DNA of 64,000 bases, taken from Sinosporangium siamense. GTDB taxonomy: Bacteria; Actinomycetota; Actinomycetes; Streptosporangiales; Streptosporangiaceae. Each line of letters begins with the position of its first letter. Position 1 is the first letter of the stretch. Shown in pieces: positions 19,323 through 34,092 of this stretch. A model generated the notes under the pieces. It saw nothing but the letters and a program-made list of their open reading frames with translations, had not been told where the DNA came from and searched no databases. Where the stretch lies: positions 186,001 through 250,000 of the forward strand of contig NZ_BOOW01000020.1 of assembly GCF_016863435.1 (NCBI RefSeq), given 5' to 3'. Both the position numbers and the translations under genes were made by a program.

Positions 19323-20105
19323 ATGGTCTTGCGCTACGTCACCCCGACAACGACGCGGTGGAACGCAAGGACCTACGACAGCTCGTTCGGCTATGTCTCC
19401 GCCCTCGGCGCCCCGCTGGTCGACCTGCTCGACCCCCAACCCGGCGAACGCATCCTGGATCTCGGCTGCGGCACCGGGGTGCTCACCGCCGAGATCCACT
19501 CGCGGGGCGCGGAGGTGCTCGGCATCGACGGCTCCGCCATGATGATCGAGAAGGCCCTAGCGCATTACCCCGGGCTGGACTTCATCGTGGGCGACGGGCA
19601 CGACTTCAGCGTGGCCCAGCAGTACGACGCGGTCTTCTCCAACGCCGCCCTTCACTGGATGAGCCGCGACCCCGACATGGTGATCGCCAACGTGCGCGAG
19701 GCGCTCAGGCCCGGCGGGCGTTTCATCGCCGAGATGGGCGGAGCGGGCAACTGCGCCGAACTCCGGGCCGCCCTGGCGACCGCCTGGCGGGAACACGGCC
19801 TCGGCGAACCGGAGTTCCCGTGGTACTTCCCCACCCCGGCCGAATATTCGCTCCGGCTGGAGAAGGAGGGCTTTGTGGTGCGACTCCTCGAACACTTCGA
19901 ACGTCCGACACCTTTGAACGAGTGCCCCGGAGGCGCCGCAGACTGGGTGCGGATGTTCGCCGCGGAGCAGCTCACCAAGGCGCCGGCCGACCAGGTCGAG
20001 CCGCTGCTGCGCCGGGTCAACGAACTGGCCGCCCCCGCGCTCCGCACGGAGAACGGCTGGATGGCCGACTACGTTCGGCTGCGATTCGCTGCCGTTCGCC
20101 GCTAA
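19323..20105 (+). CDS. Class I SAM-dependent methyltransferase
   Basis: A 260-residue protein with motif I ILDLGCGTGVLTAEI, an acidic loop VLGIDGSAMM, and YDAVFSNAALHWM. That last stretch resembles trans-aconitate methyltransferases and small-molecule methyltransferases of the UbiE/Tam type. I chose ATG 19323; an in-frame TTG ten codons upstream is less likely. It is monocistronic in appearance, and the substrate cannot be inferred from the neighbours. Confidence 0.75.
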   Translation: MVLRYVTPTTTRWNARTYDSSFGYVSALGAPLVDLLDPQPGERILDLGCGTGVLTAEIHSRGAEVLGIDGSAMMIEKALAHYPGLDFIVGDGHDFSVAQQYDAVFSNAALHWMSRDPDMVIANVREALRPGGRFIAEMGGAGNCAELRAALATAWREHGLGEPEFPWYFPTPAEYSLRLEKEGFVVRLLEHFERPTPLNECPGGAADWVRMFAAEQLTKAPADQVEPLLRRVNELAAPALRTENGWMADYVRLRFAAVRR

Positions 20106-20133
20106 CAGGGCCCAACACATGGGGGCGATTTGC

Positions 20134-20147
20134 CAGACTATGGTCTG
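20134..20147. promoter_or_regulatory. Perfect inverted repeat CAGAC-N4-GTCTG upstream of the helicase module
   Basis: CAGACTATGGTCTG lies about 105 bp before the first gene of the helicase module. The complementary half-site CATAGTCTG recurs at 25211-25219, in the gap before the third gene. It is a candidate operator; the regulator is unknown. Confidence 0.4.
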
Positions 20148-20252
20148 TTCCGTGGTTCCCGTCTGTAGCAGCACAGGACAGTATGGCGAGGCTTGGGCCA
20201 TGAGAGGCGAAAGGCTGGTGAACGGTGACTCAGCCGGAGAGGGAACAGAGAG

Positions 20253-23117
20253 ATGAACTTCTGCCTCAGTGACCTCGTACCGCCGCTCCGATGGAGCGAC
20301 GCGGCCGTCATCCCCCGGCTCAGGGAGTGGCCCGACCTGCCCCCGGCCTGGTGGCGCAGCACACCGATCTCCCGGCTGCTCCACACGGTCGGCCCGGAGG
20401 CCCTCGGCGACCTGCTGACCGACCTCGCCGTCGATCAGTGGCCCGCCGCCGCCGTCGGCGACATCCTGCCCGCGCTACACGTGCTGGACCCCGACGACCT
20501 GGACAACCCACAGGTCTCGATCGCCCTCGACCGCGCCGGCTCGTTCCCGGGCCTGCTCGCCCTCACCGGCCGCGAACTCCTCGACCAGCCGTTTGTCCAC
20601 GCCCGCCCGGTGCTGCGAGCCTTGTTCACCGGGGTTCTCGCACGGCTGGCGCCGGCTCAGGCGGGCACCCCGGCCTCGGCCCCGCCGGCGCGTGAGGCGG
20701 AGGAGCAGGCCGCGTCCCGGGAAGAGGTGCAGGGGACCGACAAGCAGGAGTCCGACAAACCGGGCGCCGAGGTGCGGAGCTCGCCGGCGCAGGCCGTGCT
20801 GGCCCAGGCCACTTCGGCGCTCGCCGCCTCCGCCCAGGCCGCGCTGGGGCAACCGGACGCGGCAGAGGCCGAGGCCGACTCCCCCGCCAAAGACTCGGCC
20901 GAGCCGGCGCAGGACACACCTTCCCCCTCGGAGGTCGGGAGGAAGGACAAGGCATCCGAGCAGGGTGCGGCGGAGCCCGCTTCAGCGGGTGCCGACGAGC
21001 CGGAGCCGGGTCAGGCCGCCCAGAAGCAGGACATCCTTGAGCCGGACGACGCCACATCGGGTGACACCGAATCGGGCGGCACAAAAGCGAGCGGCACAGA
21101 AGCGAGCGGCACGGAAGCGAGCGGCACGGAAGCGAGCGGCGCCGAAAAGGGCAGTGACGGAAAGCGCAGTGACGGAAAGGGCAGCGCCGAAGCGGAGGGT
21201 GAGGAGCGGGCTGCTGATTCCGCCCAGGGCACCCCGCCGAATGCCGACCAGGCCGACGATGCCTCCGAGCGGAGCCCGGCCACCCCACCCGCGGAAACCG
21301 CCGGCGAACCTCCGGCGGAGCGGGCGGGCGCGCTTGAAGGCAGCGCCGTAAAAGACAGTGCCGTAAAAGACAGTGCCATAAAGGACGGTGCCGCAAAGGA
21401 CGGTGCTGCAAAGGGCGGTGCTGCAAAGGGCGGTGCTGCGGAAAGCAGCGCCGCAGACGGCAGCGCCGAAGAGACCAACCCCGCAACAGGCAGCGCGGCA
21501 GACGGCAAGGCCGAAGAAGGCAGTGCCGTAGAGAACAGTGCCGCGGAAAACAACGCCGAGGGCAGCGCCGCAGAAGCCTCTGCGGAGAGCGCGGGCAAGG
21601 CGGAGGAGAACGACGCCAAGGGCGGCGGCAGCGGGACCGAGGAAAGCAAGAACAGCAAGGACGGCAAGGACGGCGACGCGGAGGCCGAGGAGAACGGGCC
21701 GCACGGTGGTGTGCCGCTGGCGGAGCCGTTGGAGCCGTTGCCGCCCGCCGAGCCGGCTGCGGGACAGGACGCCGCCGGGCAGGAGGCGGAGCGGGCGAGT
21801 GGGCCCGCGGCGCCGATGCCTGCGGGGCCGCCCGTCCCGGAGCCGGCGGCGAAGGCGGGGACGCCGTTCCTGCCGTTCACGCCGGCGCCGAAACGGCGGG
21901 AGGACGGTTTCGCCTCGACGACGGGTGATCAGGGCGGGTTGAAGATCGACCTGCACGCTCTGATCGAGGCGTCTTTCGCGGGGCTGGACGACAAGAGCTG
22001 GGCGGTGGCGCAGAACCGGGTGTTCACCGACGCGCCGTCGTCGTCCGATGAGCTGGCGAAGTTGTTCGCGGTGTCGGCGGCCGACATAGAGGAAATCGAA
22101 GCCGACATGCGGGTGCGGTTGAAGAAGTGGCTCGTCAGTGACGAGGCCACGCCGTACCGGGCGCATGCGGCCGAGACGCAGAAGCAGCTGGGGAAGGCGG
22201 CGCCGAAGGCGCGGTTGCTGGCGCTGGCGGAGTGGCACGGCAAGGAGTTGCACGCGCTGGATGTGCCGGCGTGGCAGTTCGTGCTGGCGACGCTGCCTGG
22301 TTATCGCCTGATCGACGGCTGGGTGGTGGACGGCGATCTGGCGGAGTTGCAGGAGCGCACCCGGGAGCTGATCATCGGCTCGGAGCGGCCGCCCACGGTG
22401 AGCAAGGCGCTGGAGCTTGTGGTGTCGCTCGGCATCCACCCCGATCTGGCGAAGGAGTGGCTGGAGAACGTTCCGCAGCTGCGGATCACGCCGCCGGATC
22501 GCAACGGCACTCCTCCGCAGCAGCAGGAGGGACGGGACGAGGGCGGCCAGGGCGAGGCTGAGCAGACGCCGCAGTCCCCGGCTCCCGCGGCGGCGCCGGT
22601 GCGGGCGTTGAAGGACGTGTCGGCGACCAGGCGGTGTTTCCGGCAGCCGGACGGACGCTGGTGGTTGCGGGTGGATGTGACGGTGGACCACCTGAAGAAC
22701 GCTGAGTGTTCGCTGCCGAGTGGTTTCGCGGCTTATCTGGGGCTTGCACCGGATGAGCGGAGGACGGTGCGGAGCGCGGCGGGCGACGTCACGTTGAGCT
22801 GGATCTCGGGTCCGGCGATCGAGTCGGTGCTGCCGCTGCTGACGGACGTCGGCGCGAAGGAGGGGGGTCACCTGTTCCTGACGTTGTCGGAGGAGGGCGT
22901 GTTGCGCGCCCGGCATCTGGCGGCGGCGGGACCGGGGGTGGACCCGCTGACAAAGGCACTGCGCCTGGTGGGGTATACGGCTCCGGGTGGCACGATTGAG
23001 CAGGCGGCAAGGGTGATAGCGACCAGAATCGGCATGTCGGGTCAGGTGACCGTGCCCGACCTCATGTCCCGGCTGCGTGAACGTGGGGACCGCGACCTGC
23101 TGTCCCTACTGGCCTGA
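20253..23117 (+). CDS. Large protein with sigma-70 region-4-like helix and a 420-residue disordered insert
   Basis: 954 residues in three parts. The N-terminal 135 residues (MNFCLSDLVPPLRW) match the start of the 614-residue paralogue at 25257. Residues about 135-558 are low-complexity Ala/Glu/Ser/Asp, with five-residue repeats such as GTEAS and AVKDS. Residues about 560-954 again match the paralogue: a degenerate sigma-70 region-4-like helix pair near 596-627 (DELAKLFAVSAADIEEIEAD) and a C-terminal domain ending LMSRLRERGDRDLLSLLA. The RERIRQIE recognition helix of the paralogue is replaced by AADIEEIE, so DNA binding may be lost. GAGGG and AGAGAG precede the ATG. The function is unknown. 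Confidence 0.7.
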   Translation: MNFCLSDLVPPLRWSDAAVIPRLREWPDLPPAWWRSTPISRLLHTVGPEALGDLLTDLAVDQWPAAAVGDILPALHVLDPDDLDNPQVSIALDRAGSFPGLLALTGRELLDQPFVHARPVLRALFTGVLARLAPAQAGTPASAPPAREAEEQAASREEVQGTDKQESDKPGAEVRSSPAQAVLAQATSALAASAQAALGQPDAAEAEADSPAKDSAEPAQDTPSPSEVGRKDKASEQGAAEPASAGADEPEPGQAAQKQDILEPDDATSGDTESGGTKASGTEASGTEASGTEASGAEKGSDGKRSDGKGSAEAEGEERAADSAQGTPPNADQADDASERSPATPPAETAGEPPAERAGALEGSAVKDSAVKDSAIKDGAAKDGAAKGGAAKGGAAESSAADGSAEETNPATGSAADGKAEEGSAVENSAAENNAEGSAAEASAESAGKAEENDAKGGGSGTEESKNSKDGKDGDAEAEENGPHGGVPLAEPLEPLPPAEPAAGQDAAGQEAERASGPAAPMPAGPPVPEPAAKAGTPFLPFTPAPKRREDGFASTTGDQGGLKIDLHALIEASFAGLDDKSWAVAQNRVFTDAPSSSDELAKLFAVSAADIEEIEADMRVRLKKWLVSDEATPYRAHAAETQKQLGKAAPKARLLALAEWHGKELHALDVPAWQFVLATLPGYRLIDGWVVDGDLAELQERTRELIIGSERPPTVSKALELVVSLGIHPDLAKEWLENVPQLRITPPDRNGTPPQQQEGRDEGGQGEAEQTPQSPAPAAAPVRALKDVSATRRCFRQPDGRWWLRVDVTVDHLKNAECSLPSGFAAYLGLAPDERRTVRSAAGDVTLSWISGPAIESVLPLLTDVGAKEGGHLFLTLSEEGVLRARHLAAAGPGVDPLTKALRLVGYTAPGGTIEQAARVIATRIGMSGQVTVPDLMSRLRERGDRDLLSLLA
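21057..21570 (+). repeat. 15-bp in-frame coding repeats in the disordered region
   Basis: Units of the type GCGAGCGGCACGGAA (about 4 copies, 21085-21140) and GCCGTAAAAGACAGT (about 8 diverged copies, 21345-21470) encode five-residue repeats. Their 15-bp period keeps the frame, so the disordered insert appears to have grown by slippage. Confidence 0.85.
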
Positions 23118-23131
23118 GCGAGGTCGCCCAC

Positions 23132-25207
23132 GTGCCACGTTTAGCCATCGCACCGGAGTTCCCCAGGGACCTCGCGACCCTGGCCGATTCCGTGCGCCGC
23201 GACGTGGTCGTGGCGGTGAGACGGTTTCTCGCGTCGATGGCGGCCGCCCCGCACGCCGAACGTGTGCGGGGCGCCAGGGACGACCGTATGGCCACCCTGC
23301 GCCTGGCGGACCGGCACCGCGGTGTGGTGGTGCGGCAGCGGGATGTGTACTGGTTGCTCGCGGTGCTTCCCGACGCCGAGGCGTGGTTGTTCGCGCAGAG
23401 GTTCCGGGTGGGGGTGAACCTGGAGATCGGCGTGGTGGAGCTGTGGGACGCCGAGGCGCTGGAACGCATCGAGCCCGCTTTGCACCGCGCCGCCGAGACG
23501 ACCGAGTCGCGGCTGCTGTCGCATGTCTGCGACGCCGATCTGCTGTCGGTGGGGATCGACCCGCAGTTCCTGCCGCTGGTACGGCTGGTCGCCACCGAGA
23601 TCGCGCTGGAGGCGATCGAGCCGCTGATCCCGCGCACGCAGTTCCTGCCGCTGGCGGTGCTGGCGCGGGGCGGCACGCTGGCCGACGCCTGGCGTGAGCT
23701 GGCGTCGTGCCGCACCGCGGCGGTCGTGCCGGGGCCGATCGCCCCCGACGATCTGCACGCGGCGCTGCGCCGCAGCCCCGACCGGGCGATGTTCACCCCC
23801 GACCGGCACGAGCTGGACCGGGTGCTGACCCGCCCGCTTTGGTGCACGTTCCTGTATCCGCAGCAACATCGTCTGGCCCGCACCGACCGCTACGACCGGC
23901 CGGTGCTCGTCACGGGCGGCGCCGGCACGGGCAAGACGCTCGTCGCGCTGCACCGGGCCGCGCATCTGGCGCGGCAGGGGGCCGGGGCGGTGTTGCTGGT
24001 GTCGTTCTCGCAGCGGCTCAGCAGCGACCTGTCCGCCCGGCTCGACCTGCTGATCGACGACGACGTGGTGCGCAAGCGGGTGGAGGTCGGCAACGTCGAC
24101 CGGCTGGCGCAGCGGATCGTCGCCGAGGCCGAGGGCCGGCAGCCGACGCTGGCGGGCAACGCCGAACTGGCCGAGTTGTGGCAGGAGGCCGGCGAGCTGT
24201 CGGGCACGTCCCACGGCGCGGCGTTCCTGATGCGCGAGTGGGAGCAGGTGGTTCTCGCCCAGAACCTCCAGACCTTGGATGAATATCGCAACGCCGAGCG
24301 GTTCGGGCGCAGCGTGGAGCTTTCCGGGGCCGAACGTGAGGCGGTGTGGAAGGCCATCACCTACGTGATGACCAGGCTGCGGGAGTCGGGCCGACGCACC
24401 CTGCTGCAACTGGCCGCGGAGGCGTCTGCGCTGCTCGGCCGGTCGACCGGCGATCTGCTTGACGAGACGGGGCCGAGGCGGGAGCCGTACCGGCACATCG
24501 TGGTGGACGAGGCGCAGGATTTGCACCCGGCGCAGTGGCGGCTGCTGCGGGCCGCGGTGCCGAGGGCCTCCAACGACCTGTTCATCGTGGGCGACCCGCA
24601 CCAGCGGATCTTCGACACGCGGGTGACGCTGAGCGCGGTGGGCATCAGCGCGGTGCCGCGCCGGCTGCACGCGTCCCACCGGCTGCCGCAGGAGATCCTG
24701 TCGTTCGGGGTGCGGCTGCGCGGCGGGGGGCCGGTGGACGGCCTGGTGGAGGGCGTGCAGGAGATGTACGGCTATCGCGCCACGCGGCCGGGTGCCCGGC
24801 CCGTGGTGCGGGCGTACGACTCCCTTGAATCCGAGCTCAACGGACTTGTCACCCACATCACCACCTGGCTGGGTGAAGACGTGGAACCCGACCAGATCGC
24901 AGTCGCGGCTCGCACGACCGACCTGGTGCGTGACGCGCGTACGGCACTGCGCACCGCGGGGCTCGCGGTTAGGGTGACCACACTGCACGGTATGAAGGGG
25001 CTGGAGTTCCGGCGGGTGGCGGTGATCGGCGTGGCGGACGGTGTGGTGCCCGCCCCCGGCGCGCTCACCCCCGCGGGCGAGGACCCCACGGCACGCGCCC
25101 ACGATCTCCAGCGTGAGCGTGGGTTGCTTTACGTGGCGTGCACACGTGCCTACGAACTGCTTTACGTGTCCTACTCAGGGAGGGCGAGCCCCTTCCTGCC
25201 ACCCTGA
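23132..25207 (+). CDS. UvrD-family SF1A helicase with N-terminal ParE/RelE-like domain
   Basis: 691 residues. The first ~95 (MPRLAIAPEFPRDLATL, then VRGARDDRMATLRLADRHRG) resemble a ParE/RelE toxin fold fused to UvrD helicases in many actinobacteria. Helicase motifs follow in order: Walker A GGAGTGKT (about 261-268), motif II DEAQD (about 459), GDPHQRIF, THLG-type LHGMKGLEF (about 621) and LLYVACTRA (about 664). It starts at GTG 23132, 14 bp after the previous gene. It is predicted to translocate 3'-5' on DNA or RNA. Whether the toxin-like domain keeps nuclease or gyrase-binding activity cannot be told. Confidence 0.85.
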   Translation: MPRLAIAPEFPRDLATLADSVRRDVVVAVRRFLASMAAAPHAERVRGARDDRMATLRLADRHRGVVVRQRDVYWLLAVLPDAEAWLFAQRFRVGVNLEIGVVELWDAEALERIEPALHRAAETTESRLLSHVCDADLLSVGIDPQFLPLVRLVATEIALEAIEPLIPRTQFLPLAVLARGGTLADAWRELASCRTAAVVPGPIAPDDLHAALRRSPDRAMFTPDRHELDRVLTRPLWCTFLYPQQHRLARTDRYDRPVLVTGGAGTGKTLVALHRAAHLARQGAGAVLLVSFSQRLSSDLSARLDLLIDDDVVRKRVEVGNVDRLAQRIVAEAEGRQPTLAGNAELAELWQEAGELSGTSHGAAFLMREWEQVVLAQNLQTLDEYRNAERFGRSVELSGAEREAVWKAITYVMTRLRESGRRTLLQLAAEASALLGRSTGDLLDETGPRREPYRHIVVDEAQDLHPAQWRLLRAAVPRASNDLFIVGDPHQRIFDTRVTLSAVGISAVPRRLHASHRLPQEILSFGVRLRGGGPVDGLVEGVQEMYGYRATRPGARPVVRAYDSLESELNGLVTHITTWLGEDVEPDQIAVAARTTDLVRDARTALRTAGLAVRVTTLHGMKGLEFRRVAVIGVADGVVPAPGALTPAGEDPTARAHDLQRERGLLYVACTRAYELLYVSYSGRASPFLPP

Positions 25208-25256
25208 TCACATAGTCTGAACTGCGGATATCTTCCCTTTTGCCGGTTGGACCCCA

Positions 25257-27101
25257 ATGAACCTGAGTCTGAGCGACATCGCGCCGCCCCTGCGCTGGAC
25301 ATCCCCCGGCCAGATCGCGCCCATCGCCAACGATCCACGCCTCCCCGAGGCGTGGTGGCAGGCGATCCCGCTCGACCGCGCCTGCGCCACCCTCGGCGCA
25401 TCCGACGTGGCCGCGCGGCTCGCCGACCTCACCCTCGCGTCCTGGGGCCACTTGATATTGGGGGACGTGCTTCCGCTCCTCAGGTTCACCGACCCGGTGG
25501 AAAGCACCCGCACCGCCGACGGGCTCGGCAGAGACACCGTGCACAAGCTCTTCAGCGGCGTCATCGAACGGCTGCTGATCCCCGCCGAGGAACGCTCGGC
25601 CGTGCCCCTGCCACCGTCACGGCCCGAACGGCCGCTGCCGGAGGTCATCGACGAGGTCTTCGAAGGGCTCGACGAGCGCCAGCGGGCCATCGCGAGAGAC
25701 CGACTGTACGCCTCGCAGCGGGCCACGCTCGACGAACTCGCCCAGAGGTTCTCCGTCACCCGGGAACGCATCCGGCAGATCGAACGTGACCTGCGTGAAC
25801 ACGTCGACGAATGGCTCGGCGGGCCCGACGCCGCCCCGCTCGTCGCCCACGTCTCCTGGCTGCGGGGGCGCCTTGGCTCCGCCGTACCGGCCGACGACCT
25901 CGCCGCCGCCGTGCCGTGGCACCGCACCGAGCTCACCACACTCACCATCCCCGCGTGGCGGTTCGTGCGCACGCTGCTGACCGGCTATGAGCAGGTCGAC
26001 GGCTGGCTCGTCACCGGCGGCGCCGACGAGCTGCGGGAGAAGACCCGGCAGCTCTTCACCGACGGGCCCCGGCCCCTCCCGGAAGCCGTCACCGTGGTCG
26101 CCCAGCTCGGCGTGCGCGAAGACGTCGCCGAGCGCTGGATCGCCGCCGTGCCCCAGCTGCGCCTCCTCGAAGAACACGTGGTCGCCTGGCCGCGCAGCGT
26201 CAACGAGAAGGCCGAAGCGGTGCTCGCCGTCACCGGGAGCGCCCTGACCCCCGAGGAGATCCAGGAGCGCATCGGCGAGGACTACAGCCTCGTCGGCATC
26301 CGCAACCAGCTCACCGCCGACGACCGGTTCCTGCGGGTCGACCGGAACAAGTACGGACTGACCCGGTGGGGCGGCGAGGAATATCTCGGCATCCGGGAAA
26401 TGATCGTCCGGGAGATCGAGCGGGCCGGCGGCGAGGCGTCGGTCTCCACGATCGTCGCCAACCTGACCTCCCGCTACGACGTCAGCGAAAGCTCCGTGCG
26501 CGCCTACGCCGGCGGCCCCGGCTTCGAACGCACCCAGCGCGGCTGGGTGCGCGTCGCAGGCTCCGACGGCAACGGCGCCTACCAGCCGCGCAAGGACGTC
26601 TCGGAGACCCGGCGCTGCTTCCGCAGCCGCGACGGCCGCTGGTGGCACCGCGTCGACGTCAACGCCGAACACCTCCGCGGCTCCGGCTCCCCCCTGCCCA
26701 CCGGCTTCGCCGCCTACCTCGGTATGGCCCCCGGCGGCCAGCTCACTGGCTCCGCCCCCTCCGGCGACGTGGTCATCAGCTGGCATAACCAGCCCACCAT
26801 GGGGTCGATCCGCAACATCCTCTCCGAGTCCAACGCGGCCGAGGGCGACCACGTCTTCCTCACCGTCTCCGACGGCGGCGAACTCCTCACCCGCTACCTC
26901 CCCGCCGCACCCCCCGCCATGCCCCCGGTCAACCGCGCCCTCCACCTCATCGGCTACACCGCCCCCGTCGCCTCGGAAGCCGAAGGCTACCGCCTCATCG
27001 GCGCCCGCATCGGCCTCCCCGAGACCGCCCCCCGAGAGGACATCATCGCCAGACTCCGCGAACGCGGCGACCGAGACATCCTCGGCTTCCTCGGGGTGTA
27101 A
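25257..27101 (+). CDS. Sigma-70 region-4-like/HARE-HTH-like DNA-binding protein, helicase-associated
   Basis: 614 residues, a shorter paralogue of the first gene of the module and without the disordered insert. A well-kept sigma region-4 type helix-turn-helix lies at about 158-187 (LDELAQRFSVTRERIRQIER). A second winged-helix segment near 328-368 (LTPEEIQERIGEDYSLVGIR) resembles HARE-HTH domains, as in the RNA polymerase delta subunit. The C-terminal domain (SETRRCFRSRDGRWWHRVDV) is shared with the paralogue and ends in LRERGDRDILGFLG. It follows the helicase after 49 bp. It may target the module to promoters or damaged templates; this is inference. Confidence 0.72.
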   Translation: MNLSLSDIAPPLRWTSPGQIAPIANDPRLPEAWWQAIPLDRACATLGASDVAARLADLTLASWGHLILGDVLPLLRFTDPVESTRTADGLGRDTVHKLFSGVIERLLIPAEERSAVPLPPSRPERPLPEVIDEVFEGLDERQRAIARDRLYASQRATLDELAQRFSVTRERIRQIERDLREHVDEWLGGPDAAPLVAHVSWLRGRLGSAVPADDLAAAVPWHRTELTTLTIPAWRFVRTLLTGYEQVDGWLVTGGADELREKTRQLFTDGPRPLPEAVTVVAQLGVREDVAERWIAAVPQLRLLEEHVVAWPRSVNEKAEAVLAVTGSALTPEEIQERIGEDYSLVGIRNQLTADDRFLRVDRNKYGLTRWGGEEYLGIREMIVREIERAGGEASVSTIVANLTSRYDVSESSVRAYAGGPGFERTQRGWVRVAGSDGNGAYQPRKDVSETRRCFRSRDGRWWHRVDVNAEHLRGSGSPLPTGFAAYLGMAPGGQLTGSAPSGDVVISWHNQPTMGSIRNILSESNAAEGDHVFLTVSDGGELLTRYLPAAPPAMPPVNRALHLIGYTAPVASEAEGYRLIGARIGLPETAPREDIIARLRERGDRDILGFLGV

Positions 27102-27136
27102 CAGGCACGGTCACCGCGGTTCGCCTCTCCTGCGAA

Positions 27137-27446
27137 CTCCCAACTCCCAGGATTGGGAGAATCTGGGAGCAAACTGGGAGCACCAGCGTCCACCCACGCT
27201 GACCTGGCACTTCTCCGGGGCGATCACCCAACTGGGAGAAGCTGGGAACAGACTGGGAGCAGTGGCGCCCCACCCCGCTGACCTGGCGTGTCACCGAATC
27301 CTCCCAAGGCGATCTTCCAACTCCCAGAACTGGGAGAACCTGGGAGCAAACTGTGAGCAGGCTCAGCCCACAGTCGCCATCTCGTGTTTTACTAGGTCGA
27401 CAGCCCCAACTCCCAGAACTGGGAGAACCTGGGAGCAAACTGGGAG
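27137..27446. repeat. Four clusters of helically phased CTGGGAG heptamers upstream of fic
   Basis: Each cluster reads CTGGGAG-N3-CTGGGAG-N4-CTGGGAG, so heptamers start every 10 then 11 bp, on one face of the helix. First heptamers start at 27153, 27232, 27330 and 27419. Three of the clusters also have an inverted CTCCCAG two bases before the first heptamer (for example CTCCCAG-AA-CTGGGAG at 27321-27336). The whole 392-bp gap from 27102 to the fic ATG at 27494 has no other gene. Likely roles are a multi-site operator or a protein-assembly site. Confidence 0.9.
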
Positions 27447-27493
27447 ATCGCCTGGATGGTGGTCCCCGCCGAGCGCACGAAACTCGAGGCCAG

Positions 27494-28840
27494 ATGCGAA
27501 CCCCACAGGTGCCACCCCCGACCGCCGAGGTGCTTCAACGGCTCAGCGACCCGCGAGTGCTGGCCATTCTGGCGGGTCACGACCATGGGACGCCCTATCA
27601 CCATTGGGAGGACACCCGATATCGGAAACCTCCACAGGAGTTGTCACGAGAAGAATGGTGGGCGGTCATCAAGGCGGCCCGGCTCGCCGACAGCCGGCGC
27701 ATCCCCCTCGCGGACACCGCGGGCAGGCCATTCTTCTACTGTCTCCCCGACGAGGTGCTGCGGGATAACGAGTTCGTCAGCACACAAACGGGCGGCGGCA
27801 TCGGCCTGGGGGAAGACGTGGCCAACCCCGCCGTGCGGGACCAATACCTCGTCAACTCACTGATCGAGGAGGCGGTCACCTCCAGCCAGCTGGAGGGCGC
27901 AAGGACCGACAAGCGTGTCGCTCAAGCGATGATCAGGTCGGGGCGCGAACCTCGCGACAAGAGCGAGCGCATGATCCTGAACAACTTCCGGGCCATGGAG
28001 TTCGTAAGCGAGATCCGCTCCGAACCACTCACCCCGGAGATCATCTGCCAGATCCAGCGCATCGCCACCGAAGGGACCTTGGACAACCCGGCGAGCGCCG
28101 GAAGGTTCCAACTCCCGCACGAGGAGCGTGTCGGCGTCTACGACACCGAGGGAAACCTCCTTTACCGGCCGCCGCCGGCCGAGGTGCTGCCCGAACGCAT
28201 TGAGCAGCTGTGCAGATTCGCCAACACCATGGACAGCGGACCGTATCTTCCGTGCGCGGTCCGGGCGATCGTCATCCATTTCATGCTGGCTTATGAACAT
28301 CCTTTCGAGGACGGAAACGGGCGGACGGCGCGGCTGCTTTTCTATTGGTCGATGCTGCACCACGGATATTGGCTAACGGAGTTCATCTCCATATCCAGCA
28401 TCATCGGCAGAGCGCCCGCGAAATACGGCCGCGCCTTTCTCCGGACCGAGACCGACGACAACGATCTCACCTATTTCATTCTCTTCCATCTGCGGGTCCT
28501 GCGCACCGCAATCGATGAACTCCACACCTACCTCGCCCGGAAGGTCACCGAGGTCCGCGAGCTGACCGGGAAGCTGCACAACGAAGCCGGCCATTTCAAT
28601 CACCGGCAGCTCGCACTGCTCGGCGACGCCCTCAAGAACCCCGGCGCGAGCTACTCCGTCCAGTCCCACCGAACCTCGCACCGCGTGTCCGCGGAGACGG
28701 CCCGGCAGGACCTTTTGGAGCTTGAGGGCAATGGTTTCCTGGAGAAAAGCCGCATGGGCAAGAAATTCGTCTACCGCCCCAGAGCGAATCTCGCAGAGAA
28801 GGTCAGAATGTTCAGCGGCACCCACCCGGAAATCGGTTAA
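27494..28840 (+). CDS. Fic family protein with N-terminal self-inhibitory motif and C-terminal winged helix
   Basis: 448 residues. The Fic motif HPFEDGNGR is at about 269-277, as expected for an AMP-transferase. The inhibitory motif (S/T)xxxE(G/N) appears as SSQLEG (about 130-135), so Glu134 should block ATP positioning until inhibition is relieved. The C-terminal region (SAETARQDLLELEGNGFLEK) is a winged-helix type, common in this class. I chose ATG 27494 after GAGG. Upstream lie the phased heptamers. Its TAA stop overlaps the stop of the antisense rraA fragment at 28837-28901. The protein target is unknown. Confidence 0.88.
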   Translation: MRTPQVPPPTAEVLQRLSDPRVLAILAGHDHGTPYHHWEDTRYRKPPQELSREEWWAVIKAARLADSRRIPLADTAGRPFFYCLPDEVLRDNEFVSTQTGGGIGLGEDVANPAVRDQYLVNSLIEEAVTSSQLEGARTDKRVAQAMIRSGREPRDKSERMILNNFRAMEFVSEIRSEPLTPEIICQIQRIATEGTLDNPASAGRFQLPHEERVGVYDTEGNLLYRPPPAEVLPERIEQLCRFANTMDSGPYLPCAVRAIVIHFMLAYEHPFEDGNGRTARLLFYWSMLHHGYWLTEFISISSIIGRAPAKYGRAFLRTETDDNDLTYFILFHLRVLRTAIDELHTYLARKVTEVRELTGKLHNEAGHFNHRQLALLGDALKNPGASYSVQSHRTSHRVSAETARQDLLELEGNGFLEKSRMGKKFVYRPRANLAEKVRMFSGTHPEIG

Positions 28841-28901
28841 TCCTCCGGTGATTGCGGGCTTATGACGATGCCGTCCTCGTCGCTGTAGAGCCAGGAGCCG
28901 G
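28838..28901 (-). pseudogene. rraA 3'-end fragment (left copy of a 64-bp direct repeat)
   Basis: 28838-28901 matches 32351-32414 at 58 of 64 positions. On the minus strand it still encodes the RraA tail: [20 protein letters not shown] and a stop, compared with [18 protein letters not shown] in the intact gene. No upstream part of rraA is present here. Together with the intact gene end it brackets the first NLR cassette. Confidence 0.9.
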
Positions 28902-31301
28902 AGGCAGTAGAGCTTTGATCGCCTCCTGTCGGCGCATGGACTCGGGGTCGTCGAAACGCGAGAGGATGCCCAGTGCTTCACGACCGTGCCGCGCCGCTTC
29001 CTCCTCTGCTCCCAGGGCATGCAAAGCGGCGGCCAGGTCTCCCAGTGCGAGGGCGAGGAACCATTGGTGGCCGATGTCGCGGTGGACCGCCGCCGCGCGA
29101 CGGTGGAAGTCGGCGGCCTCGGAGTGGCGCTCCATTCCCTGATAGGCCCGGCCGGTGCCGCTCCAGGCGAGGGCTTCACGAGTGCGGTCCCCGATGGTGC
29201 GCTGGATGACGGCTGAACGTTGGCAGGAGATCAGAGCCTCGGGGAACCGGCCTGCTGCGCACTGGACCTCTCCGAGTTCAATCAGCCAGAAACCTTCCCA
29301 CATCTGGTTTCTATGCGCTTGGGCAATGGCGATGGCGTCTTCGATGTACGGCAGAGCCTCGGCCGGTCGGCCGGCTCTGCGGAGATTCATGCTGATCAGG
29401 CGTAGGGCGTTGCCCTCGCTTCCGGCGTTGCCCTGGGAGCGGTAGGAAGCGAGGGCGGCCTCCAGCATTGTGGCGGCGAGTTCGTGTTCGCCGAGTTCGG
29501 CGTGCACCTGGCCGAGGTTGCCGGAGACCACGGCCTCCCGTCCTGGCTCGTTGAGCTCTGCATATATCGCCGCGCTCGCCGTGAAATGCGTTTGGGCCTC
29601 ACGCAGGCGATGTGCACGGAGGTGAACCAGTCCCAGCCGGTTGCGGGATCTCGCCTCACCCTGACGGTCACCGAGCTCGCGGTAGACGGCCAAGGCTGCT
29701 TCGGCGTACTCGATCGCCTTGTCTGAACGCTGAGCCTGTGTGTAGGCCATGGCGAGGCCGTCGAGGTTCTCGGCTTCGCCGTACCGATCCCCGAGGAGGC
29801 GTGCGGCGTCGAGGCCGCGCTGCCCGACCTCGAACCAGTGCTGAAACTCGTTGAGGCGCGCGTAGATCTCTTTGAGGACGGCGGAGAGTCGCCACACCGT
29901 CGCATGGTGCCCGGTGTCGAAGGCGGATCTCACGACGTCGACGAGGTTGCTGCGCTCCGCTTCGTACCAGGCCATCGCGGCGTCGTAGTCGGGGAAGGCC
30001 GGTGGCCTCGGCTCGTCGGCGGCATCGCTCAGGCGGATCGGAGCCGGCCCCGGCACGATGTGGGCCCGGGCCGCGGCGGCGCCCAGCGTATACCAGGAAT
30101 ACAACCGCTGCTCGATCACGCGGCGACTTGCCGCGGTCTCCTCGCGCTCGATCTGGTCGATGGCATAGGCACGCAACAGATCATGGAACTGATAGCGGCC
30201 GGGTCGATGCTGCTCAACGAGGTGTGCCCCGGCCAGGAGATCCAAAGTGGGGCGCACGCGGACCTCGTCCGTTCCGGCCACGGCGGCTGCGGCAGCTGTG
30301 CTGAAGTCGGCTCCCGGGTGGACTCCGAGCGTGCGGAACAGCCGGGCGGCCTCTTCCGGCAGCGCCCGATAGGACCAGGCGAACACTCCACGCACGGCAT
30401 CGGCTTCCTCGCCGTCGACGACCGTCAACGCCTCCCACAGGCCGGATTCGTCGCGGAGATCAGCGATCAGTTCGCTGAGCGGCATCCACGGACGACTCGC
30501 CGCCCGCTCGGCTGCGATCCGCAGGGCGAGCGGCAGGCCCGCACAAAGCCGGGAGAGTTCGGCGAGCGAGTCCGGGTCGTCGCCGCCGCGGTAGGCGTCG
30601 GTGACCCGGCGCAGCAGCGCGATGGCGTCTTGTTCCGGCAGAATGCCGAGTGTCAGGCGTTCCGCGCCGTCGCGGGCGACAAGTGCCGACAACCTGTTGC
30701 GGCTGGTGATCAGAACCAGGCATCCGGCGGCGCCCGGGAGGAGAGGACGGATCTGGCCTGCGGTCACGGCGTTGTCCAAGACCACCAGCAGGCGGCGGCC
30801 GGCCAGCAGGGATCGATAGAGGGCCGACCTGTCGTCGAGGTCGCTGGGAATCGCGGCCGGTTCGACACCGAGTGCTCGCAGGAAACGTTCGAGCACGTAT
30901 GCGGCTTCCAGGGGAGGGCCGGGATCATAGCCCCTGAGGTTGACGTAGAGCTGTCCGTCGGGAAACCGCTCCTTGGCGCGATGTGCCCAGTGAAGTGCGA
31001 GTGAAGTCTTGCCGACCCCGGCGGTGCCGACGATCACCGCGATGGTAACCGCGGATCCTTCGTGCTCGTGATCGTCGAGCGTCGCCTCCAGGCGCGTGAG
31101 TTCGTGTCCGCGGTTGACGAAGCCCCGCACGTCTCGGGGAAGCTCGCGGGGTATCCGCGGTGCCTGGCGGGCGGCCTGTTGAAAGTGCACCCCACCGTAG
31201 ACATCTCTCGCCTGGACGACGTCTGACGCATTGCCGGACAGGATCGACTGCGAGTCGCCGGACGGGGGATCCGGCGTGGGGGCCGGTTCCTGGCCCTGCA
31301 C
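28860..31301 (-). CDS. NB-ARC/TPR protein (bacterial NLR-like), cassette 1
   Basis: 813 residues from GTG 31301, with GGAGGG upstream. The order is: N-terminal leader DVVQARDVYGGVHF, NB-ARC ATPase with Walker A GTAGVGKTS (92-100), Walker B LLVVLDNA (171-178), a LITSRNR sensor and GLPLALRIAAERA. A winged-helix-like stretch (RYQFHDLLRAYAIDQ) follows, then about eight TPR units from about residue 470. There is no SARP DNA-binding domain. Such STAND ATPases oligomerise on sensing a ligand, and many act in antiphage defence. The last 13 codons lie inside the rraA-derived repeat, so the C-terminus is chimeric. Confidence 0.85.
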   Translation of the reverse strand: MQGQEPAPTPDPPSGDSQSILSGNASDVVQARDVYGGVHFQQAARQAPRIPRELPRDVRGFVNRGHELTRLEATLDDHEHEGSAVTIAVIVGTAGVGKTSLALHWAHRAKERFPDGQLYVNLRGYDPGPPLEAAYVLERFLRALGVEPAAIPSDLDDRSALYRSLLAGRRLLVVLDNAVTAGQIRPLLPGAAGCLVLITSRNRLSALVARDGAERLTLGILPEQDAIALLRRVTDAYRGGDDPDSLAELSRLCAGLPLALRIAAERAASRPWMPLSELIADLRDESGLWEALTVVDGEEADAVRGVFAWSYRALPEEAARLFRTLGVHPGADFSTAAAAAVAGTDEVRVRPTLDLLAGAHLVEQHRPGRYQFHDLLRAYAIDQIEREETAASRRVIEQRLYSWYTLGAAAARAHIVPGPAPIRLSDAADEPRPPAFPDYDAAMAWYEAERSNLVDVVRSAFDTGHHATVWRLSAVLKEIYARLNEFQHWFEVGQRGLDAARLLGDRYGEAENLDGLAMAYTQAQRSDKAIEYAEAALAVYRELGDRQGEARSRNRLGLVHLRAHRLREAQTHFTASAAIYAELNEPGREAVVSGNLGQVHAELGEHELAATMLEAALASYRSQGNAGSEGNALRLISMNLRRAGRPAEALPYIEDAIAIAQAHRNQMWEGFWLIELGEVQCAAGRFPEALISCQRSAVIQRTIGDRTREALAWSGTGRAYQGMERHSEAADFHRRAAAVHRDIGHQWFLALALGDLAAALHALGAEEEAARHGREALGILSRFDDPESMRRQEAIKALLPPAPGSTATRTASS

Positions 31302-31329: not shown

Positions 31330-31944
31330 TCACGACTTCACGGCCGGAGGGGCGAGTCCGGCTACTTCGCGAGCGAAGTAGGAGCGGATGTCCTCGCCTT
31401 GTTCGTGCAGGGACTTGATGACATGCCGGCAGCGCTCGATCAGCAGGGGATCGGTGAAGCGTGTGGATCCGTCACCAACGCCTTGTGCGGTGTAGTGAAT
31501 TCGATACATCGTCTTGGCGCCCAGGGTGATGATTTCCGGAAACGGCCCCGACGTCTCTCGGTCAGCCGTCTGGTCGACGGTCACAATGTGAATGCGCTCT
31601 CCGCACTCCGCCCTGAGGTTGAGCAGATGCAGTTCCCACTGGAGGTAAGGCGTCAACGGCCACTCGACGACGCGCACCCGATAGGACGCCACGCCTCGAT
31701 TCGCATGCTCGCCGAAATATTCTTCGAGCCTGTTTCTTCCCTCTGCGATGAGCCGGAGCGCGGTCTGCCAGTCACCGGCGTCGAACGCCTCCCAACTCGG
31801 CACTCCCGGTTCCGCGAACGACTGCCGGCGCTCGAGTTTCCATGACTCGTCGTCGTAGAGCCGCTGGTATTCGGTCCTGAACTCCGCCCTGTAGACGGCT
31901 CTTTCGAGCCGCTCGCCGGAAAAACCCTCAAGGAGGTCAGTCAT
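31330..31944 (-). CDS. DUF6879 family protein, cassette 1
   Basis: A 204-residue protein with the DUF6879 hallmarks ESWKLERRQSF, SWEAFDAGDW and a final YFAREVAGL. The ATG overlaps the stop of the upstream small gene by 8 bp, and the NLR gene starts 28 bp downstream. DUF6879 proteins are widespread in actinomycetes, usually beside HTH or DUF397 genes, and have no proven biochemical function. The fixed position before an NB-ARC/TPR gene, repeated in cassette 2, suggests that it works with the NLR as an effector, adaptor or regulator. Confidence 0.8.
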   Translation of the reverse strand: MTDLLEGFSGERLERAVYRAEFRTEYQRLYDDESWKLERRQSFAEPGVPSWEAFDAGDWQTALRLIAEGRNRLEEYFGEHANRGVASYRVRVVEWPLTPYLQWELHLLNLRAECGERIHIVTVDQTADRETSGPFPEIITLGAKTMYRIHYTAQGVGDGSTRFTDPLLIERCRHVIKSLHEQGEDIRSYFAREVAGLAPPAVKS

Positions 31945-33215: not shown

Positions 33216-33488
33216 ATGATGCCAAGTCTTTGGGAAGCGGATCCGGCGGCGTCGTTCAAACGTCGACTAGGAAAATCAGCGCTTGAACTCGACCAGACCA
33301 ACGATGGCCCTACATGTCCCGACATATGGGAGCTGGACAACGGCGATATCGCCATCATCGGTCGAGATCTGACGACAAACTACACCAGCAGGCTACCTGC
33401 CGGGGTGAAGGTCGGCCTCGACGAACGGCTCGTCGTCATTCCCGGCGTCATGCTCAAGGCCGCAAAACCGGATATATCAGATGAGTGA
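33216..33488 (+). CDS. Small acidic protein, first gene of cassette 2
   Basis: 90 residues (MMPSLWEADPAASFKRRLG). It is homologous to the 89-residue protein of cassette 1: both share CPDIWELDNGDI followed by a SRLPA stretch and an acidic tail. AAGGG lies 6 bp before ATG 33216; ATG 33219 matches the partner start. The stop overlaps the DUF6879 ATG by 8 bp (ATGAGTGA), as in cassette 1. The family was not recognised. Confidence 0.65.
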   Translation: MMPSLWEADPAASFKRRLGKSALELDQTNDGPTCPDIWELDNGDIAIIGRDLTTNYTSRLPAGVKVGLDERLVVIPGVMLKAAKPDISDE

Positions 33489-34092
33489 AATTCTGCCTGT
33501 CTTTCCAGGCCACCGGCTGGGCCTAGATGATTACATCGCCGACTACTACCACTACTTCTGGCAGACCGACAGCACCGGTTGCTGGAAGCTGGAACGCCGA
33601 CAGACCTTCAGAGAACTGAACAATCCCAGTTGGGAGGCCTCCTCCCAGGGGGACTGGCCATGCGCCTTGAAGCTGCTGGAGGAGGGGCGTGCTCAGGTCA
33701 AGGACTATCAGCGGCGCGTCCTGGAGCACGGATTCGAGTTCCGCCGTGTGCGCATCGTGGAGGTGCCCTTCAGCGCGTACTTGATATGGGAGCTGAACTC
33801 GCTGCTCATCCGCCATGAATACGGTGAGAGGATCCGTGTCGTAACCGGAGGTGCGATCAGCCGGTTCGAGAGGCACGCCCCTCTTCCCGAGATCGTCGTT
33901 CTGGGAACCCAGGTCGTTTATCAAGTGATCTACGGGAGCAGCGGCCTGGCGGAAGGTGCGATGAAATCCACGGATCCAACGGACATCCGATTCTGGGCGG
34001 ACTTCATTGAGCGGCTATACGGAGACGGCGAGGAACTCGACAGCTACTTCCAACGGGAGGTCGCCGGACTGCGTCCCGTTGAAGAGGAATAG
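33481..34092 (+). CDS. DUF6879 family protein, cassette 2
   Basis: 203 residues with CWKLERRQTF, NPSWEASSQGDW and a final YFQREVAGL, clearly paralogous to the cassette 1 protein. It differs at many positions, so the duplication is old or the cassettes arrived separately. It is translationally coupled to the small gene through the 8-bp overlap and followed by the NLR gene 36 bp later. The function is unknown. Confidence 0.8.
   Translation: MSEILPVFPGHRLGLDDYIADYYHYFWQTDSTGCWKLERRQTFRELNNPSWEASSQGDWPCALKLLEEGRAQVKDYQRRVLEHGFEFRRVRIVEVPFSAYLIWELNSLLIRHEYGERIRVVTGGAISRFERHAPLPEIVVLGTQVVYQVIYGSSGLAEGAMKSTDPTDIRFWADFIERLYGDGEELDSYFQREVAGLRPVEEE

Follow-up and report, generated by a model that had tools for sequence, protein, structure and literature searches.

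A three-gene operon of Streptosporangiaceae that joins an ArmD-type RelE-UvrD helicase to an intact and a degenerate sigma region 4-like paralogue

Introduction

What is a helicase with a toxin-like head doing between two paralogous proteins that resemble parts of a sigma factor? This question is raised by a locus of Sinosporangium siamense (contig NZ_BOOW01000020.1, positions 186,001 to 250,000; this whole stretch of 64,000 nucleotides (nt) is referred to as the window), in which three genes, labelled P954, HEL and P614 in this analysis by gene order, follow one another on the + strand. A first-pass annotation made from the sequence had described them as a module in which an active and an inactive DNA-binding subunit surround a translocase, and had suggested a transcription-coupled or invader-sensing complex not yet described as a system. 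Our own search of the literature agrees with the last point, in that no description of the triad was found among the papers listed, as judged from titles and abstract openings. Here, we report that the triad is a real operon inherited at one chromosomal site within a single bacterial family and that its motor is of a type already known from anti-phage defence, and we tentatively propose that it works as a domesticated DNA-surveillance complex.

Conservation of the operon at a single chromosomal site

A scan of named genomes with a P614 alignment yielded 116 relatives, the best 80 of which were retained as triad loci. Record titles place all 80 in genera that we take to be Streptosporangiaceae, and the family label itself was seen for the loci placed in trees. 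HEL lies beside P614 in all 80 loci, and two combined scans, the first of which omitted matches below 50% identity or overlapping P614, found P954 in all 80, with the contig ending inside P954 in three cases. The three genes are consecutive and on the same strand, downstream of a gene for an S-adenosylmethionine (SAM) methyltransferase (MT; 19323..20105, + strand), and the intergenic gaps are 2-18 nt between P954 and HEL (77 loci) and 35-71 nt between HEL and P614 (80 loci). P954-HEL-P614 is a real operon, and within this one family the case for it is stronger than the first-pass annotation had made it. An order unique to this strain, or a chance neighbourhood, has next to no probability and was rejected, because the arrangement recurs in 80 of 80 loci across many genera with conserved spacing. 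The nearest relative of the window among the best 80 of the 116 is Sinosporangium album (P614 95% identical).

The surroundings of the operon are as constant as the operon itself. MT accompanies the triad in 77 of the 80 loci, and the contigs of the other three are cut. In the 77 loci with enough upstream sequence, this flank contains a ferredoxin gene in 76, a solute-binding protein (SBP) gene in 76 and an aminotransferase gene in 75; in the 77 loci with enough downstream sequence, that flank contains a CysRS-like gene in 75, the exceptions being L076 and Sinosporangium album (L078). We used MT as a marker of the site and did not count it as a member; its candidature as a fourth member was rejected because it is present without the triad in five genomes of a sister clade (G002, G016, G240, G344 and G365), all of which have MT and a nearby CysRS-like match. 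In these triad-less sites, the two genes are separated by 10 nt between called open reading frames (ORFs) in G365 and by approximately 1.4 kb in G002, and the CysRS-like match lies on the other strand in G016. No P614 match was found in G002 and G016 at 0.001, or in G240, G344 and G365 at 1e-12. In aminotransferase gene trees, which serve here as a stand-in for species trees, as does the MT tree, the triad rows form one clade (support 98/95 with three triad-less genomes and 100/98 with all five) and the triad-less genomes are its sister group. The MT tree likewise parts the triad from three non-triad rows (100/100, midpoint root). The five sister genomes without the triad are most simply explained by a single gain on the stem that leads to the triad clade, or else by a single loss in the sister clade. 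The identical flanks in 75-76 of 77 loci, the housekeeping site and vertical inheritance in one clade speak against a placement in defence islands.

In the family sample, 117 of 249 genomes contain a P614 match at 9.1e-253 or better, a count that does not establish presence in every genome of the triad-bearing genera, and six further genomes, all of genus g30, contain a weaker relative (8.8e-117 region). In the class sample, any P614-like match at 1e-12 was found in 53 of 393 genomes, 42 of which belong to the same family. Spread of P614 by phages was rejected, as no match was present in the phage collection at 1e-4. Its plasmid relatives are distant, except for one Nonomuraea record of 11.85 Mb that looks like a chromosome filed as a plasmid.

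HEL: a RelE-fold head on a UvrD motor

HEL (23132..25207, + strand) was assigned by Pfam, motifs and profile match to the ArmD type of helicase, in which a RelE fold precedes an SF1A UvrD/GajB-like motor. The UvrD family (PF00580) was matched at 9.2e-22, and the first ~115 residues had no Pfam match. The RelE-fold domain (residues 1-105; 23132..23446, + strand) was recognized from its predicted structure. The AlphaFold 2 (AF2) model of residues 1-125 has a predicted local distance difference test score (pLDDT) of 92; Foldseek matched it to RelE 3bpq at 4.8e-4, all seven matches at 0.001 or better being toxins of the RelE superfamily; and comparison by VIA, for which we trust Z scores from 8, gave Z 10.0 to RelE 2khe. 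The model thus bears out the ParE/RelE-like N-terminus that had been noticed on this UvrD helicase, and the head is confidently predicted to have a RelE fold. The sequence profile of the N-domain found no RelE among PDB sequences.

The motor motifs are well conserved. Walker A (GGAGTGKT, residues 262-269; 23915..23938, + strand) shows minor variants among 81 rows, GDPHQ is present in 81 of 81, and DE(A/G)QD is present in 78 of 81 with DDAQD in the other three. Short helicases of 601-620 amino acids (aa) make up 37 of the 80, mostly from Nonomuraea (e.g. L066, L073, L091 and L097), and many of them have an altered motif V. The genome of the window contains a second helicase of 927 aa (L040:7742-10522, C8) that is sister to the triad HELs in the tree (98/96) and matches them only from HEL residue 216-219 on, and thus has a different N-terminus.

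P614: the intact paralogue

P614 (25257..27101, + strand) consists of an N-domain, a sigma region 4 domain, a series of winged helices, one of them HARE-like, and, at the C-terminus, a B3-like domain. Its AF2 model has a mean pLDDT of 82 and a predicted template modelling score of 0.44, so that the single domains are credible and their arrangement is not. The sigma region 4 domain (residues 127-187; 25635..25817, + strand) carries the helix TRERIRQIERD and is matched by Sigma70_r4 of Pfam at 2.6e-7, above the cut-off. VIA aligned it with 1ku7, the region 4 of sigmaA on -35 DNA, at Z 6.4 (root-mean-square deviation 2.0, 71 residues). R, E and Q stand at positions 169, 170 and 174 in all 81 sequences; in principal sigma factors, as in the 1ku7 structure, these positions contact the -35 element. 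No Sigma70_r2 (region 2) match was found by Pfam at E values up to 1.

The HARE-like winged helix (residues 314-371; 26196..26369, + strand) is a candidate assignment, matched by Pfam at 0.0044 with 17.8 bits against a curated cut-off of 25.9. The model gives it the helix/strand pattern of a winged helix, with a part at pLDDT below 50. The adjacent segment (residues 374-440; 26376..26576, + strand) is predicted to be a further winged helix, with VIA Z scores that reach 7.8 for MecI and further winged helices and 6.3 for a model of RPOE, the delta subunit of RNA polymerase (RNAP). The B3-like domain (residues 454-551; 26616..26909, + strand) was recognized by both VIA, with matches to VRN1 (Z 7.0, 91 residues), ARF1 (6.7, 95 residues), VAL1 (6.4) and NGA1 (6.3), and Foldseek, with a match to the N-domain of LlaJI.R1 (E 0.038). 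Because all B3 Z scores are below 8, this assignment is suggestive. An RNAP alpha C-terminal domain (alpha-CTD) in the N-terminus of P614 was considered and is unsupported (hhalign probability 0.1%, compared with 94% for the control, a P614-like protein of locus L168 described below). Against the N-termini of seven distant P614-like proteins, the same region scored 14.8% in hhalign.

P954: a degenerate twin

P954 (20253..23117, + strand) is, by sequence comparison, a degenerate paralogue of P614. It comprises an N-domain (residues 1-138), a long variable linker, a sigma-4-like segment (approximately residues 570-628) and a C-terminal domain (residues 787-953) that is apparently homologous to the B3-like domain of P614. 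Its total length varies from 545 to 1580 aa (77 loci), and it had no match in Pfam (E up to 1), PADLOC or PHROGs, and in NCBIfam only matches far below the cut-off. P954 and P614 are 49% identical over 167 aa at the C-terminus, 39% over 176 aa in the middle and 27% over 221 aa at the N-terminus, and both end with LRERGDRD plus a few residues, in agreement with the paralogy that had been proposed for the two flanking proteins.

The difference lies in the recognition helix. In the sigma-4-like segment of P954 (21960..22136, + strand), this helix reads AADIEEIE. Among 78 sequences, 63 have no Lys or Arg in it, 14 have one and a single sequence has two. The HARE-like segment was not found in P954, so the claim that only the intact paralogue contains it held, with the reservation that the match in P614 is itself below the cut-off. 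Judged by these sequences, P954 has lost the basic recognition helix, and the contrast between an intact and a degenerate paralogue is fixed in the family. Among 14 HARE-bearing rows outside P614, 11 retain (T/S)RER(I/V)RQ. Five rows linked to suf-like genes and the three displayed P954 rows lack both the helix and a complete HARE region, and L053, the sixth of the rows linked to psu-like genes, has 40 of 58 HARE columns; the profile alignment of the helix and HARE regions failed for some rows, with the P954 of L112 and five of the six psu rows being largely gapped.

The psu and suf rows belong to additional paralogues. A third paralogue is present at L039:9392-11092 (C15 of the genome of the window) and at L052-L057, seven triad genomes in all, after PfkB- and Indigoidine_A-like genes that are psuK/psuG-like (Pfam-checked in L039 and L054). 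A frameshift in this paralogue ('1 TGA') was considered and rejected, as the stop looks like the end of a shorter ORF. Five genomes of the family without the triad (L047-L051) contain a solo paralogue beside a class V aminotransferase gene and a NifU-type gene, which are sufS/sufU-like (Pfam-checked in L047 only).

Noncoding elements and neighbouring genes

Two noncoding elements are conserved with the operon. E1 (GATTTGCCAGACTATGGTCTG; 20127..20147, + strand) lies upstream of P954 and contains the inverted repeat CAGAC-TATG-GTCTG; in the rows displayed, it is located 45-135 nt before P954. It was found with up to two mismatches in 71 of 78 upstream regions and with up to three in 75 of 78, and letter-shuffled regions never gave fewer than six. 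Searched as TTTGCCNGACTATGGTCTG with up to three mismatches in ten triad genomes, it was present at the locus in nine, and elsewhere in the ten genomes there were seven matches compared with ten for the reversed control. E2 (25217..25253, + strand) occupies most of the gap between HEL and P614 and nearly reaches the start codon of P614. Its parts E2a (15 nt) and E2b (12 nt) are present with at most one mismatch in 73 and 77 of 81 sequences, respectively, and 27 of the 49 columns of this gap are at least 95% identical. The first 21 nt of E2, with up to three mismatches, occur once, at the locus, in nine of ten genomes, with no match elsewhere or in the control. TTTGCC is common to both elements.

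A regulon sharing E1 or E2 is unsupported, as neither recurs above the control in the ten genomes. In 19900-27500, Rfam gave no match up to E 0.5, and neither consensus sigma-70-type promoters nor terminators were found, with shuffled sequences averaging 0.2 and 3.0, respectively. The simplest reading is that E1 and E2 are a putative local control site, most likely bound by the DNA-reading proteins of the operon itself, and E2 may also form an RNA hairpin. As local and highly conserved DNA, they offer a direct handle for a binding study.

In the window, P614 is followed by a Fic gene (27353-28840) and an AfsR/HaaT-like NB-ARC/TPR gene (28860-31301). Fic and AfsR-like genes also follow P614 in Sinosporangium album, at the place where most relatives have the CysRS-like gene; the window itself was not searched for that gene. 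Two DUF6879 genes on opposite strands (31333-31944 and 33481-34089) lie near the AfsR-like gene.

Relatives of the motor and of P614 outside the triad

HEL-profile matches at 1e-60 or better were found in 94 of the 393 class genomes, many of them beginning well after the RelE part. We hand-picked 22 RelE-UvrD loci, mostly from the best HEL matches, and labelled them from six called genes on either side. Eleven are near DrmA, DrmB or DrmC-cluster genes, a proportion that, given the selection, is no unbiased rate, three are near only a kinase or methyltransferase of the DISARM neighbourhood, and eight are near neither. PADLOC was applied to the proteins of L214 and two of L215, the remaining DISARM labels being BLAST clusters, and in L214 it identified DrmA (7.9e-295), DrmB (6.6e-70) and DrmC (1.5e-100). 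L214:3198-15931 is an actinobacterial DISARM cluster in which DrmA, DrmB, DrmC, a PD-T4-6-like kinase, the RelE-UvrD helicase and GmrSD follow in succession, and parts of this gene row recur in other loci.

Outside the family, a P614-like gene adjoins GmrSD in L169, is parted from a nearby GmrSD by a transposase gene in L168 and overlaps a REase-ARP gene in L175; the scanned neighbours in L171 and L178 include no restriction genes. Four annotated P614-like genes of actinobacterial plasmids (L260-L262 and L267) have thermonuclease or ParA/ParB genes nearby. At L168:8997-11201, a P614-like protein is fused to an RNAP alpha-CTD (Pfam 8.2e-7), near GmrSD and an SMC-like ATPase gene. P614-like genes are also present on three small plasmids of Microbacterium chocolatum (L258, L265 and L266), two of which contain UvrD- and exonuclease-annotated ORFs, which may be one split gene, and DUF4011 genes. 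This UvrD gene was rejected as part of a second triad because it has no HEL-profile match at 1e-3.

Interpretation of the triad

The reading that we favour, with somewhat less than even confidence, is that the triad is a single domesticated complex for DNA surveillance, with a motor that is positioned by P614. As the reader, P614 would use its sigma-4 helix, the winged helices and the B3-like domain to bind either DNA, at a -35-like, modified or structured target, or RNAP, and would bring HEL there. The UvrD part of HEL would translocate on DNA with ATP, and the RelE-fold head would contact, and perhaps cleave, RNA or serve in docking or regulation. P954 would be a structural partner, a duplicated reader minus the base-reading helix and the HARE part; as it has kept the shared N- and C-domains, it could form a pair with P614 or serve to hold HEL. 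Autoregulation is probable, with the product of the operon acting at E1 and E2. The parts would have come from families used in defence, and the unit would have become settled at a single chromosomal site in the ancestor of those Streptosporangiaceae that carry the triad; the outcome may be immunity or the maintenance of the cell's own DNA. A bolder reading, which we consider quite doubtful, is a guardian anchored to promoters or polymerase, in which the -35 helix of P614 would station HEL, the RelE head would attack the RNA of foreign or stalled transcription, P954, as a locked twin unable to read DNA, would set the resting state, and the operon would sense its own level through E1 and E2.

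Several findings weigh against the surveillance complex. The conserved unit (80 loci) contains no nuclease, no DNA methyltransferase and no partner of the ArmA, ArmB or ArmC type. The flanking families keep company with the helicase in all 80 loci of the family, so that the refuting condition named by the first-pass annotation, their rarity beside the helicase in other genomes, fails there. In the loci examined outside the family it holds in part: no P614-like gene lies within four called genes of the other RelE-UvrD helicases (22 of 22 loci), and the 11 P614-like loci that the class sample has beyond the family all lack a HEL match nearby. The tree places five HEL relatives closest to the triad clade (L040, L209, L210, L211 and L227), and among them only L209 is near DISARM genes; one of the other four is near the kinase only, L227 is beside an OLD-like nuclease gene, and two are near none. 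In the short helicases (37 of 80), the segment that separates the two Walker motifs, A and B, is shorter by ~75-80 aa, and the motor may therefore work differently in some loci. L176-L178 combine the HARE region with an altered helix. Finally, when the P614 model was compared as a whole, the top Foldseek matches were not transcription factors but UFL1-DDRGK1 (1.6e-4) and the elongation factor EF-Sec (0.02), both of which have tandem winged helices.

Two rivals give the complex a different purpose. It may serve core transcription or repair, as HelD or PcrA do, with P614 docking on RNAP through its sigma-4 and HARE/delta-like domains and the motor removing stalled polymerase or repairing template DNA, which we regard as possible, at well below an even chance. 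The intact -35-type residues of the sigma-4 domain, the match of the winged helix to the RNAP delta model (a middling Z of 6.3), the breadth of its retention (117 of the 249 genomes of the family sample), the slow evolution of P614 and the paralogues in suf-like and pseudouridine-type gene rows all suit it; the triad was found in this clade only, the HelD and PcrA profiles scored well short of their cut-offs, through motifs common to helicases, and many HEL relatives lie in defence loci. The other, which we find only slightly less likely, is a working anti-phage system, a reduced relative of ARMADA or DISARM. P614 and P954 would here stand in for the remaining partners, with the damage done by the RelE head or by an unlinked enzyme. 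HEL is ArmD-like, and all four ARMADA II genes are required (PMC12458937); half of the hand-picked RelE-UvrD loci are near Drm genes, the L227 helicase adjoins its OLD-like nuclease gene, and P614-like genes adjoin GmrSD and REase-ARP. The rates of evolution can be read both ways. The median identity to the window is 65.7% for HEL (80 loci), which evolves faster than MT (77.7%, 77 loci), the aminotransferase (76.3%, 75 loci) and ferredoxin (90.6%, 76 loci). However, the SBP varies even more (57.9%, 76 loci), so that the rate of HEL alone is no sign of defence, and P614 (80.5%, 80 loci) is conserved to about the same degree as MT and the aminotransferase. The fixed housekeeping site, the absence of an effector nuclease and of a DNA methyltransferase from the unit and the single DISARM-linked locus among the five nearest HEL relatives also argue against a present-day anti-phage role.

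A toxin-antitoxin-like operon, in which the RelE head would be a held-back RNase, P954 its antitoxin-like partner and the E1 palindrome an autoregulatory operator, is in our view distinctly improbable. The RelE fold of HEL, the position of P954 2-18 nt before HEL and a palindromic element before the operon that does not recur above the control fit such an arrangement, but P954 matched no antitoxin family and the ARMADA II cluster is described with four genes and no antitoxin (PMC12458937). Returning to the surveillance complex, what stands of the earlier interpretation is an intact/degenerate pair around a motif-conserved motor that is inherited as a unit, the unsupported part being a defence-island setting. 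The relation of the parts to defence (ArmD, the DISARM neighbours and the restriction-nuclease neighbours of some relatives) holds, and the sigma-4, HARE-like and winged-helix domains make a role in transcription or DNA reading plausible.

Two alignments were built from a part of the loci: for alignment A3, five TTG-start P614 rows were removed and then every second row, leaving 38 of the 80 loci, and alignment A4 used 46 of the 80.

Comparison with known systems

The helicase type of HEL has already been described, as ArmD, on which the first-pass annotation was silent. In a 2025 preprint (PMC12458937), ARMADA type II is a system of four genes, all of which, including armD, are required; ArmD is a UvrD/GajB-like helicase with an N-terminal RelE-like domain, and its partners are ArmA (BrxHII), ArmB (PglX) and ArmC (YprA). 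From position 2 to position 687, the HEL profile is matched at 5.5e-101 by a protein of an E. coli plasmid, whose Walker A lysine K266 and Walker B aspartate D454 share their numbers with the residues mutated in ArmD (PMC12458937). Its gene follows that of a 2113-aa DEAD/DEAH helicase with DELH at 234, in which a search for the Walker A pattern found none. We infer that this plasmid protein is ArmD, and by tblastn it is 31.7% identical to HEL over 76% of HEL, from residue 167 on. The triad has in common with ARMADA II, as described there, a RelE fold joined to a UvrD/GajB-like helicase and differs from it in the partners, which are P954 and P614 in place of ArmA, ArmB and ArmC. The order of BrxHII-, PglX- and YprA-like genes before HEL was not found in the 80 loci, where the conserved neighbours are the ferredoxin, SBP, MT and CysRS-like genes, and no such genes were present among the scanned window neighbours, a subset of the window genes.

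The RelE-UvrD helicases associated with DISARM in actinobacteria are full-length homologues of HEL (2e-156 to 5e-207, 11 loci). In contrast, a long branch (100/100) sets the HELs of the triad apart as a separate clade, the conserved triad flanks contain no Drm gene, and PADLOC gave no Drm among the matches listed for six window proteins (for HEL, the best 25 of 51). The P614-like proteins beside GmrSD and REase-ARP align with P614 in the sigma-4, HARE-like, winged-helix and B3-like regions but have a different N-terminus and no HEL match nearby. MzaA of the MZA anti-phage system also contains a sigma-4 segment, to which P614 was matched in NCBIfam (1.1e-9), although the match covers ~50 residues of a 726-position profile and scores 37.7 bits against a cut-off of 800 bits. 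P614 shares with region 4 of SigA/RpoD both the recognition helix TRERIRQIE and the fold (1ku7), and SigA chains are among its sequence matches; it differs from SigA/RpoD in that its sigma-4 is joined in series to other DNA-binding domains and no region 2 was matched at E up to 1.

The comparison is of interest because a helicase type that is essential in an anti-phage system is encoded here at a fixed place in the chromosome throughout one bacterial clade, together with new partners resembling pieces of the transcription machinery. If the model of a reader and a motor is true, the triad would be a clear case of defence parts made into a permanent cellular machine and a testable link from promoter recognition to invader control; if the guardian reading is true, it would be a domesticated, clade-wide complex of transcription-coupled innate immunity, of a kind not yet described. 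The motor is of a known anti-phage type, and, within the searches made, the reader pair and the fixed, single-site life of the unit are new.

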